NCBI GenBank assembly: GCA_030581615.1
Contig: JAKTTT010000097.1
Span: 1-50,395 of the forward strand
DNA: 50,395 bases
From: Alloascoidea africana
Lineage: Eukaryota > Ascomycota > Alloascoideomycetes > Alloascoideales > Alloascoideaceae
Direction of reading: 5' to 3'
Shown in pieces: positions 40,312 through 48,068 of this stretch; the first letter of the stretch is position 1, and each line of letters begins with the position of its first letter. Under the pieces are notes generated by a model that saw only the letters and a list, made by a program, of their open reading frames with translations, was not told the DNA's origin and did not search any database. The position numbers and the translations under genes were made by a program.

Positions 40312-42189
40312 ATGGCCCAGAAGAGAAAGGCTGATGATCTGTCGGTAGAAAATGCACAGAATAGTGGCGAACACAAAGTTCCTAAACGCACTACGGTCTC
40401 AAGCTCAAAAGCACCTTCACCAGGTTCCTCGAAATACCCAGACGTTGAGGCTATCGACTTGAACGTGGAAAATCTGGACAATCTAGATGCTACTGTTGGA
40501 CAGCTCATTGGTTCGGTTCAAACCCTTCTTACCACAGCTCCCAGCCGTAGGGCTGTTGAGGAGATTTCGACTAATCTCGTTGGCAACATGGAGCTTGCGC
40601 TCTCACTGATGCGATCTAGAATTCTGTTAGCTGTCAGCTTAAAGCGTCTTTATAAAGAAGGAAAACTGCCTTTTTTTGATGATTTGGTTGGGTTTTCAGA
40701 CACGGGACAAGCGCATGATGTCCGATTGCAAAATCTTGGTGAAATTTATAAAGGTGCACAAGAGTTGATGATTAAACAAGAGGCAGCCATTGAAGATTTT
40801 GTATTCGCCAAAAACCAAAGTAAGTCTCTAGAAGTGGAATCAAAGGCTCAAGATCCGGCCAAAACGCTACCTGAATTGAAAAACAAACAGCTCCTTGGGC
40901 AAATCATTAAACACGAATCAAGTCCTAAAGAATCTTCGAAACGTAAAGACAGCACGAGCCAAAGTTTAGTTTTTCTTGGTGAATCTTTACTGAATAGTTC
41001 TGCCACTGAAACGATATTCGATAAATACTCAAAGGAACCACACAGTATATTGGTCGAACTGAGATCGTTATTACTATCAACTGCAAATTTTGCCAAGTGG
41101 GGGAGATGTATTTCAGTGGCTAATCAACGGAAAGAAGCCATGTCCGAACAGGAACAAAAAGATTTTTTTTTGGTCTATGTCGCAGCCGTCTATCTGGAAG
41201 ATGATCGCTCCCGTTCTAGACTACAGAAATGGATATCCAACCTGATAATACCCACTCTGGACAAGATATATAAATCGATAAAAGTATCAGAAAATAGTTC
41301 AACATCCGATGAAGTTAACCTAACTGCCAAAAACAGTTTGTACTCAATCCTTAGTTGCCAGGAATTTGGTCCCGTTTATGAGACTTCTCCAGCAAGTAAC
41401 CCTCTGGGGAACTTTAAAGTCGTTTGCAAAATTTTGGATGACGTTCTAGGAATAGGATACGGCAAAAATCAAAAAGAGGCTAGTGCTCGAGCAGCTTCAG
41501 CGGCTCTTCGAAATACTTCAATGATCGACAAGTATTTGGCTTTGAAGCAAGCTGCACTTCGGTTAGGAAAGTTTGTCAAGCTCGATAATGCTACTAATAA
41601 ACCAACAGTTGAGATTAAACAGCAACAACAACAGCATAATAATGAGCTTGATTCCAAACGTGCTCGGGCTCCGTACGAAGCACCAAAGCCAAAGGCATCA
41701 TCTAAGCCCCAGCAAACATCAAACCCAAAGACGGTGACAAGCGCTACTGGCAGCAGCAATAAAAACCTTGCCCCAGCTCTTCGTTCCCAGATTCTGAATA
41801 ATAAAAGTAATCAAAGAACACTGGAACAAGCTTTATCACTAAACCCTAATAAAAGCAAAAAGAGCACGCCAGCTATGCCTCCACCCCCTCCTATGGTGAA
41901 TCAAGATATAAGTGATTTAATAGTGGCTAAAAACTCAAAGAATACGCTTTATGCTACTTTAGCCAGGTATAGCTTGTCTCCAGTATACGAAGCACTCATT
42001 GCTGAAAATGGTGATCTTAAACGAATTCTCGTGAAAACAAACTCTGGTATTAAACTTGGAGTGGGTACTTCATTAAACAAGAAACAAGCAGAGCGCAAAG
42101 CAGCGATGAATGCACTGAACAATCTTCCCATGCTCAAGTATTTTGAAAAATATAAAAATGTCCTAGGAACAGATACCAGTGATGGATGA
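40312..42189 (+). CDS. Rnt1/Dcr1-like RNase III-fold protein with degenerate active site and two dsRBDs
   Basis: This intronless frame encodes 625 residues. An N-terminal helical domain (about 45-165) resembles the dimerising domain of Rnt1. The RNase III domain (about 185-320) is recognisable: LVFLGESLLNSSATETIFDK against Rnt1 LEFLGDSILN, and KDFFLVYVAAVYLEDD against ADVFEAYIGGLMEDD. A dsRNA-binding domain at about 337-410 (NSLYSILSCQ, GIGYGKNQKEASARAASAAL) aligns with that of Rnt1. A second one at about 540-610 (NTLYATLARYSLSPVYE, GVGTSLNKKQAERKAAMNAL) gives the two-dsRBD layout of budding-yeast Dicer Dcr1. Metal-binding residues are altered: E to V at 220, D to E at 224 and E to L at 287; only D284 remains. 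It probably binds structured RNA without cutting it. A true Rnt1 should exist elsewhere. Confidence 0.82.
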   Translation: MAQKRKADDLSVENAQNSGEHKVPKRTTVSSSKAPSPGSSKYPDVEAIDLNVENLDNLDATVGQLIGSVQTLLTTAPSRRAVEEISTNLVGNMELALSLMRSRILLAVSLKRLYKEGKLPFFDDLVGFSDTGQAHDVRLQNLGEIYKGAQELMIKQEAAIEDFVFAKNQSKSLEVESKAQDPAKTLPELKNKQLLGQIIKHESSPKESSKRKDSTSQSLVFLGESLLNSSATETIFDKYSKEPHSILVELRSLLLSTANFAKWGRCISVANQRKEAMSEQEQKDFFLVYVAAVYLEDDRSRSRLQKWISNLIIPTLDKIYKSIKVSENSSTSDEVNLTAKNSLYSILSCQEFGPVYETSPASNPLGNFKVVCKILDDVLGIGYGKNQKEASARAASAALRNTSMIDKYLALKQAALRLGKFVKLDNATNKPTVEIKQQQQQHNNELDSKRARAPYEAPKPKASSKPQQTSNPKTVTSATGSSNKNLAPALRSQILNNKSNQRTLEQALSLNPNKSKKSTPAMPPPPPMVNQDISDLIVAKNSKNTLYATLARYSLSPVYEALIAENGDLKRILVKTNSGIKLGVGTSLNKKQAERKAAMNALNNLPMLKYFEKYKNVLGTDTSDG

Positions 42190-46073: not shown

Positions 46074-48068
46074 CTACTGTTCCAGAACAGAATTGCGAAG
46101 AGCAATCGCAAGCTCTTCTTCAAACGATGCCTCTGATCCAAAGGCTGGGTTATGAGAGGTAGTAAACTCACTTGAACGGAACTCTTTGTCTTCTTCATCA
46201 TTCGAACAATCCTCATCCACTTCGCAAACCTGATCTTCTCTTGTAAATGCACGCTCGTCACCAAACTCATCCACCTCCAAGTCGAGCTCCCTCTTCTTTT
46301 TCTGATTGTCAACTTTTCCTACTCCAATGGCTCCTTTTTTTGAAACATCATGGGTTTTTTTATTGAATGCGCCTTTAACTCGACTGTTCTCCCCAAAACA
46401 AAAGTATTGGATTGTCGCCCCTTGCAGAGCAATAGCACCTGTGCCTGACTCAGGATTGTTGTCTAATCTAATAAAATTTGCTGCATGTTTCATTACCGTC
46501 GGCCTATGTGAGTGATAGAGAGCCTTTCGGAGACCTTTAGTGTGAAACGAAAGTATTTTGGCTCCAGTGAGTGTATCATACACGACTGTTTCCCCGGCAC
46601 TGTATCCATCATGAAAGCCGACCAAAACAAGCAAGGAAGTATTCACAAGGGCGAATACGTTCAGATGTACAAGACTTGTATCGAGATAGTTGCCCGTCAT
46701 TGCAGCATCCGAGAGAGCATCTCGAATAATGACTGCTGGCTTCAACTATTCATCTTTGGTCTGCTGACGAATGTCAAATATGACAATTTCGCCGGTTGCT
46801 ACCAGCACGGTAGCGAAACAAGCACTCCCGCCAACGAGTGATTTATCGCATGTCAGCAGCGAGGTTTTATCAATTGAACTCTTGACAATGCACTGTTCGT
46901 TTTCCTTGCCAAGTGCGACGTCAAGCTTTAGAATCTGTGAAGTCCATTTGGGAACCCCATCTTGGCTTTGGTTCATATCATATCGAATAATCTCATTACC
47001 TTGTCCTATTACACAATAGCCTGCAGCAAAGTCTACCTGAAATATGAAACAGTTGCCTACCCTGGGAACGGGCCGGGGTAAACGAAAGGGGTGTTCTTTG
47101 GAAACTGCTAGGACGAAATCCTCACTGAGTGAAGTCTTGTAAAACAAACGTCCCACCCGGTCTCTAGCCACGACAGAACCCTTAAAATCTGCACAAATAT
47201 GGGTGATAGCTTTACCGCCTGTTGCTAAATGCCATTCCGCAAGCATTTTGTTACTTTTGAGATCCCAAGCATTTACTCTACCCGCACAGTCTCCAGTATA
47301 TAATGAAACTTTGTTATTGTGGAAGTTTTGCTTGTTAAGACATAGGGCTGAAGATCTGTCCACATGGGGCGGTGAGAGCGTGGTGCAAGTACAAATTGTG
47401 GGTTTGCCTCGAGATAGTATAACTACGTCTATTGTGCCGTCTTTATGTTCAAGGACTAGGGCATTGCACGAAGACGCCAAATGAACTGGGAAGAAAGACA
47501 TAGGTTGCATTCTTACAGAAATCGTTTCTTTCTTTAGTTCAAGGATCTTAACCTCACCAGTCACAAATGAAAATGTCACCATGCGATCGTTTTTGAAGTC
47601 TGCTTCAAAGAGTTGAATAGATTTCTCAGGGTCGGGTTCAGTAAATGTGTGTGAAGTAAGTCGTCCTTTGCTCCATTTCCGAAGACAAAACTTTCTGTAG
47701 ACGTACTCCTCTTTCCACCGTTTGCTTTTCGAGACGCTTGGAAAAGACTTGGTGCCAAACTCGTGGACAAAAATCTTCCCCCAAATGTCGTCGCTATTGA
47801 CGATTTGGTTCCACTTTCTGCACACACAACCTGCTTGGTTGGTCCAACGTTGATCCAGATAACTAAAGATACGCACCAGTATTTCATCAGGCAGAGCCTG
47901 TATTTCTGTCGCTTGAGCTGTGCTTTTACTATCTTTGTTTGGCTTGGGAGAGTTTCGAACTGACAGCTTTGAACAACTGTCTGTAAGATGGTCAAGTGTT
48001 GGGTCTTCGTTACACTGTCCCAAGCTGGAAGGACAATGCTTGCCAACTTTTTTCGAGTCCGAAGCCAT
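46074..48068 (-). pseudogene. F-box / WD-like propeller gene, copy E, with an in-frame amber codon
   Basis: The frame runs from ATG 48068 to a stop at 46074 (664 codons) with a single interruption: codon 441 is TAG (46746-46748), where copy D has TGG (Trp) in the shared RQQTxDEW motif. The F-box (about 58-101), linker and first blades are intact and nearly identical to copy D; later landmarks YTGDCAGRVNAWDLKS, VDFAAGYCVIG and CDKSLVGGSAC are present. After the TAG the same frame stays open for 223 codons with conserved LLVLVGFHDGYSAGETVVYD and an acidic C-terminal tail like that of copy D. So it is a very recent nonsense mutation, a sequencing error, or a gene relying on readthrough. A truncated 440-residue protein keeping the F-box would lack the last blades. 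Confidence 0.8.

Follow-up and report, generated by a model that had tools for sequence, protein, structure and literature searches.

A 50,395-nucleotide stretch of the Alloascoidea africana genome (Ascomycota; assembly GCA_030581615.1, contig JAKTTT010000097.1, here C97), referred to throughout as the window in its full length, carries an intact open reading frame (ORF), dead_C97, for an RNase III of the Rnt1/Dcr1 type in which three of the four acidic metal ligands are changed. Judged from its sequence, the product has very probably been maintained as a pseudo-RNase III. The same genome (23.18 Mb, 138 contigs) encodes a long-diverged sister of this protein, dead_C6, together with two paralogues whose ligands are complete and an Argonaute, and within the dead pair the strongest constraint lies in the double-stranded RNA (dsRNA)-binding domains (dsRBDs). 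The fuller explanation, which is favoured here with modest confidence, is that dead_C97 is a non-cutting, probably dimeric, dsRNA-binding protein that would modulate its active paralogues.

Homology of dead_C97 to the RNase III family is far beyond chance. The features that mark descent from the yeast (class I, Rnt1/Dcr1-type) family are present, namely an RNase_3_N domain (Pfam E=1.4e-11), an RNase III domain, dsRBDs (dsrm E=1.2e-14, in two stretches) and similarity to Rnt1. The top two phmmer matches in the PDB, 7dey (the Dicer of Pichia stipitis; E=1e-16) and 5t16 (Rnt1; E=3.2e-16), span the nuclease domain and the first dsRBD, and the second dsRBD has a weak match to RNA helicase A (E 0.016). 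Pfam scores for the RNase III domain by itself are weak (6e-4 and 8e-4, each short of the cut-off, residues 191-274), as would be expected of an eroded domain. The protein matches the NCBIfam RNase III model at E=7e-22 with 78 bits, the cut-off of this model being 166. By Pfam, dead_C97 departs from the layout of a canonical Dicer in having one RNase III domain and neither Dicer_dimer nor PAZ. Its start codon lies in an AAAATGG context.

When aligned with the two intact paralogues (C2 and C35), Rnt1 (5t16), 7dey and K. polysporus Dcr1 (3rv0), the ligand positions of dead_C97 read V, E, D, L, as against E, D, D, E in the active enzymes, which places it outside the ligand set of an enzyme. Residues that do not vary among the four paralogues of this genome (L, F, G, S and L near ligands 1 and 2; F and Y near ligand 4) serve as anchors of the alignment. 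In the NERLEF signature, E and R have been replaced as well (Q217, S218). The equivalent ligands of Rnt1 are taken to be E241, D245, D317 and E320, and in Aquifex RNase III E110 is presumed to be ligand 4 and D44 ligand 2. Going by their structure titles, the Aquifex E110Q and E110K mutants were crystallized with dsRNA, and the K. polysporus Dcr1 structure 3rv1 carries E224Q at ligand 4. A preliminary description of this DNA had already read the three changes (E to V, D to E and E to L), the relationship to Rnt1 and the two dsRBDs, all of which hold; its interval, 40969-41172, opens precisely at the ligand 1 codon and closes with the ligand 4 codon, and its view of the protein as catalytically dead is what the altered ligands predict.

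A further departure from active enzymes is the length of the stretch before ligand 3. From a conserved Trp to this ligand there are 22 residues in dead_C97 (nine below C35) and 26 in dead_C6, compared with 30-34 in seven active comparators, comprising the two paralogues, the three PDB proteins (Phe replacing the Trp in 7dey) and two bacterial-type proteins. We infer that the shortened stretch is the alpha5-alpha6 linker, which is taken here to be the segment preceding ligand 3. This linker is described as an RNA-binding motif of canonical RNase III domains (PMC8072676).

Modelling supports the nuclease fold of dead_C97. An AlphaFold2 model of residues 180-415, for which six bacterial-type RNase III proteins were added to the input, has a mean predicted local distance difference test (pLDDT) score of 68.5, and means taken by block lie at 65-90 for model residues 41-140. 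Foldseek returned 7dey first and Rnt1 next and placed Aquifex RNase III sixth; template-modelling (TM) scores for the whole model were 0.45-0.50 at a root mean square deviation of 10-17 Å, and those for the isolated Aquifex endonuclease domain were 0.72-0.74 (target-normalized) at about 4 Å. Of the structural comparison proposed in the preliminary description, the fold thus came out as a predicted nuclease; the ligand positions are those placed by alignment, and the arrangement of the two modelled domains is unsupported. A single-sequence model of the full-length protein (pLDDT 36.5) was not usable.

Table 1. Features of dead_C97 in the window and its paralogues elsewhere in the genome
Feature	Window positions	Strand	Basis or details
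ORF of the predicted dead RNase III (dead_C97)	40312..42189	+	intact single frame, 625 aa
RNase_3_N (Rnt1 N-terminal helical domain), aa 54-132	40471..40707	+	Pfam and own-genome profile search
RNase III domain, aa 186-318	40867..41265	+	boundaries set by the authors
Ligand 1, V220 in place of E	40969..40971	+	alignment with active paralogues
Ligand 2, E224 in place of D	40981..40983	+	alignment with active paralogues
Shortened stretch before ligand 3, W263 to D284, 22 residues	41098..41163	+	alignment; linker name inferred
Ligand 3, D284, kept	41161..41163	+	alignment with active paralogues
Ligand 4, L287 in place of E	41170..41172	+	alignment with active paralogues
dsRBD1	41329..41514	+	Pfam and genome profile search
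Linker, aa 410-536, poorly conserved	41539..41919	+	alignment and codon comparison
dsRBD2; helix motif KKQAERKAA kept	41938..42126	+	
C2 paralogue			745 aa from first Met; ligands E, D, D, E
C35 paralogue			599 aa; ligands E, D, D, E
C6 paralogue (dead_C6)			634 aa; ligands V, R, Q, V

Gene set, ancestry and constraint

Searches of the genome with PF14622 (nine matches), PF00636 (seven), PF18497 (four), PF00035 (11) and the dead_C97 protein (six, including dead_C97 itself and a C17 match at E 0.15) agree on four Rnt1-type genes, located on C2, C35, C6 and in the window. All four carry RNase_3_N and two dsRBDs, and the second dsRBD, a trait of budding-yeast Dcr1, is therefore present in dead_C97 but not discriminating. 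The further RNase III genes for which the preliminary description proposed a search are thus present, and the ligand set is complete in two; the second dead copy lay beyond the view of that description. A single Argonaute gene was found (C28), with PAZ and PIWI domains and, by alignment to KpAGO and human AGO2, the tetrad D, E, D, D (DEDD), the tetrad numbering of human AGO2 being assumed. Neither Dicer_dimer nor RNA-dependent RNA polymerase (RdRP) was matched in this genome, and no control genome gave a match to either, so that the absence of both is unproven. No two-domain RNase III gene was formed among the RNase III matches listed for the genome.

The ancestry of the dead pair was examined with a tree of ten sequences covering the nuclease domain and dsRBD1, comprising the four paralogues, the three PDB proteins and three bacterial-type proteins from viral contigs. 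In this tree dead_C97 and dead_C6 are sisters (100/100) on a long shared stem, standing beside C35 (60.8/64) and then C2 (93.1/67). Six constrained trees were compared by the approximately unbiased (AU) and Shimodaira-Hasegawa (SH) tests, of which the latter rejects only the union of C6 with C35 apart from dead_C97 (AU p=5e-5). Among the trees tested, this alone represents catalysis lost separately by each copy, and in this form separate loss is discarded. Grouping the pair with K. polysporus Dcr1, and hence descent from a Dcr1 of that type, is rejected by the AU test (p=0.019) but not by the SH test (p=0.217); grouping with P. stipitis Dcr1 (7dey) gives AU p=0.053 and SH p=0.333, and grouping with both Dcr1s gives AU p=0.030 without SH rejection. 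Placement of the pair outside C2 and C35 (AU p=0.55) or basal to all active yeast enzymes (AU p=0.30) is not rejected. On this sequence evidence the dead pair is of single origin, its root position being left loose by the AU tests. Of the two affinities proposed in the preliminary description, that with Rnt1 stands in the grouping with the local Rnt1-type paralogues, whereas that with Dcr1 is disfavoured for K. polysporus by the AU test but not by the SH test. Ligand 1 is V in both copies and ligand 4 is hydrophobic in both, so catalysis was probably lost before they split. No neighbouring gene was matched between the C6 and window loci, among frames of at least 150 aa in the 9 kb fetched around C6.

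The distance between the two dead copies is too large for a ratio of non-synonymous to synonymous rates, and constraint was read instead from their codon positions. Third positions are 27-39% identical across five stretches and thus nearly saturated, whilst identity at second positions is 62-77% across the four folded domains, with 52% in the linker. First and second positions are, respectively, 62 and 76% identical in dsRBD1, 59 and 77% in dsRBD2, and 49 and 62% in the RNase III domain. Both ORFs are open. The near saturation of third positions, coupled with conservation of the first two and of the dsRBDs, points to a pair of maintained proteins under long purifying selection. At the protein level, the active pair is identical at 86/146 sites of the RNase III domain (59%) versus 67/147 of the dsRBDs (46%; 48% and 43% singly), and the dead pair at 48/131 (37%) versus 80/150 (53%; 56% and 51% singly). 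The interaction between domain and pair, with sites treated as independent, amounts to a log-odds difference with z=3.6 (p=3e-4). The peak of conservation therefore appears to have moved, lying in the nuclease domain of the active pair and in the dsRBDs of the dead pair.

Other RNase III-like genes were also found in this genome. These comprise an mL44-like gene on C79 (MRPL44 dsRBD match below the cut-off), a gene related to it at C2:449973, and a gene in two pieces on C27 that is presumably mL57-like. The two mL44-like genes, L016:2237-3280(-) and L018:3650-4657(-), share 42% identity over 307 aa; the mL44 label derives from sub-cut-off matches of the L016 gene. In addition, L017:3621-5942(-), on C62, encodes a 774-aa protein that joins a Vhr1 transcription-factor domain (E 8e-41) to an RNase III-like domain with weak matches (Pfam 5e-4, below the cut-off; phmmer 1.7e-4 to the RNase III 3n3w). 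This is another degenerate RNase III fold, in this case in a DNA-binding protein, and a text search of the literature returned no paper linking Vhr1 with RNase III.

Weighing the explanations

In the explanation favoured here, a Rnt1-type duplicate would have lost its metal-binding site, and this dead ancestor would then have been duplicated again to give the window and C6 copies, kept since by selection mainly for dsRNA binding through the two dsRBDs. The proteins would dimerize through the RNase III fold and the N-terminal domain, presumably in the nucleus, on the stem-loops or long dsRNAs of the active paralogues, and would modulate, through substrate competition or heterodimerization, either cleavage by these paralogues or the passage of their products to Argonaute. 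Speaking for this explanation are the ligand states of the two dead copies beside those of C2 and C35, the sister grouping, the shift of constraint towards the dsRBDs, the Argonaute with DEDD, the ligand-mutant structures of Aquifex RNase III and K. polysporus Dcr1, and the trypanosome pairs of catalytic and non-catalytic RNase III proteins. The dsRNA-binding regulator or dimer partner suggested in the preliminary description is compatible with this scheme. A possible, though doubtful, elaboration is that the family has split into two cutters and two non-cutting dsRNA-binding subunits, whose mixed dimers would nick or space cuts, or whose dead dimers would act as a dsRBD cofactor resembling TRBP or R2D2. 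Budding-yeast RNA interference (RNAi) is described as streamlined, Dcr1 homodimers perhaps replacing dsRBD cofactors (PMC7528652).

A number of points weigh against the favoured explanation. dead_C97 keeps D at ligand 3, the D-to-E change at ligand 2 is conservative, and the Aquifex D44N mutant was crystallized with cleaved product, according to the title of 2ez6, so that cutting may persist when only ligand 2 is altered. Its nuclease domain is eroded generally, with 13 of 32 non-catalytic invariants kept compared with one of four catalytic ones (Fisher p=1); selective loss of the ligands alone is thus unsupported for this copy. The corresponding counts in dead_C6 are 20 of 32 and none of four (Fisher p=0.03), one of the 32 columns being a gap in both copies. 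A Phe 'ball' lies at the RNase III dimer interface, and preservation of the dimer face in dead_C97 is presumed rather than observed, 19 of the 32 non-catalytic invariants having been lost. A difference in age between the active and dead pairs may weaken the comparison of their domains, and the dsRNA binding, pairing and expression of dead_C97 are themselves predictions.

That dead_C97 is instead the obligate half of a heterodimer, in which an active paralogue supplies the one active site and a single strand of the duplex is nicked, is rather unlikely. Two ligand-complete and two dead paralogues do coexist, and dead_C97 retains both the fold and the N-terminal domain. There is also precedent in the trypanosome editing endonucleases, which form pairs of catalytic and non-catalytic RNase III proteins, the KREN/KREPB pairs having one competent subunit, and for which nicking of this kind has been proposed; the title of a reference in the same source states that a single functional subunit suffices in artificial Escherichia coli heterodimers (PMC9508840). 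However, the extent of invariant loss in dead_C97 and its deficit relative to C35 before ligand 3 make it a poor fit to a subunit located at a cleavage site.

An atypical active nuclease resembling Mucor R3B2, a dsRNA-binding protein whose cutting is confined to single-stranded RNA (ssRNA), is improbable. R3B2 likewise has one RNase III-like domain and two dsRBDs, shows the identical D-to-E change at the matching ligand (PMC4395119) and is without the alpha5/alpha6 linker (PMC8072676), to which the shortened stretch of dead_C97 would correspond. In contrast to R3B2, which is reported to cut ssRNA and whose family mostly keeps the acidic ligands and is placed in the Mucorales, two of the four ligand positions of dead_C97 are hydrophobic and none of those of dead_C6 is acidic, and no RdRP for NCRIP-like substrates was found in this genome, the control being silent as well.

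It is very improbable that dead_C97 is a decaying relic, that is, a Dicer or Rnt1 copy on its way to becoming a pseudogene after the loss of RNAi or of an Rnt1 function. General erosion of the nuclease domain would fit this scenario, but an intact frame of 625 codons, a strong codon-position bias relative to the sister copy, an Argonaute with DEDD and two ligand-complete paralogues do not. The version offered in the preliminary description, a Dicer that stopped cutting once RNAi had been lost, finds no support, given the presence of this Argonaute and the constraint on the ORF. Finally, a structural role in the mitochondrial ribosome, like that of the RNase III folds of mL44 and mL57, is barely credible, for although mitoribosome chains occur among the Foldseek matches and mL44 gives a weak sequence match (E 0.45), separate mL44-like genes (C79, C2) and the presumed mL57-like gene exist, the Rnt1 N-terminal domain is present and the N-terminus, by eye, is basic and not presequence-like.

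Other features of the window and genome

Five F-box paralogues lie near both ends of the contig (window 346-2010, 2853-4592, 43278-45230, 46077-48104 and 48764-50395), the last reaching the contig end. They share 35-73% identity over alignments of at least 420 aa, and three have sub-cut-off WD40-like matches; one 178-aa stretch, in an overlapping frame, is 92% identical. An in-frame TAG at window 46746-46748 splits one of these genes into two same-frame ORFs, and may reflect a pseudogene, readthrough or a sequencing error. Elsewhere in the genome, the 51 kDa subunit of complex I is duplicated (L051 on C23 and L052 on C25), with 93.8% aa identity over 497 aa and differences at 124 of 209 four-fold sites, hinting at a large-scale or whole-genome duplication. 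CTG is read as leucine at 10 of 11 partner codons in this duplicate, the eleventh being Met. The best PDB match of the subunit is 6gcs (Yarrowia), and this match, the long open frames, the duplicate and the CTG reading suggest a yeast of the Saccharomycotina that lies outside both the CUG-Ser and the Saccharomyces lineages. At four places published for Alloascoidea hylecoeti, from which contig order may differ, frames of at least 150 aa showed no P450 heme motif.

Inactive RNase III relatives and significance

Inactive relatives of RNase III are already known. The nearest known case, by description, is Cdl1 (Candida Dicer-like 1) of Candida albicans, an RNase III described as inactive and with no function assigned, which is encoded alongside an active Dcr1 and AGO1 (PMC11047096), although the passage concerned also calls the family active enzymes. 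Both cases present a budding-yeast, Dcr1-family RNase III that is inactive, here as judged from sequence, beside an active enzyme and an Argonaute, but for C. albicans the passage names one active and one inactive protein, whereas two ligand-complete and two dead proteins are found here. In comparison with Rnt1 and Dcr1 themselves (5t16, 7dey, 3rv0), the RNase III domain and first dsRBD of dead_C97 align, RNase_3_N is present and a second dsRBD occurs as described for Dcr1 (PMC7528652); the differences lie in the three changed ligands and the shorter stretch before ligand 3. In trypanosomes, too, active paralogues are accompanied by proteins, KREPB6, KREPB7 and KREPB8, whose RNase III motif lacks key catalytic residues (PMC9508840), but they belong to a mitochondrial editosome and have zinc fingers in place of dsRBDs, and a corresponding pairing of dead_C97 is a supposition. 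RNase III relatives other than Dicer also act in fungal RNA silencing, as exemplified by Mucor R3B2 and Cryptococcus Rde3 (PMC4395119, PMC8072676, PMC6643885), the latter being related to Rnt1 and needed for small interfering RNAs (PMC6643885). No title or abstract opening among the papers listed by the literature search, outside of which some key papers fall, reported paired dead Rnt1-type paralogues in fungi or yeasts, which is no proof of novelty.

The coexistence in one genome of an Argonaute, two ligand-complete genes and two dead genes that appear to have been maintained for a long time would provide a tractable setting in which to approach the roles of inactive RNase III proteins such as Cdl1, whether as competitor, partner or cofactor. 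The pair would also illustrate how, after the loss of catalysis, constraint may shift from a nuclease domain to the RNA-binding domains that accompany it.
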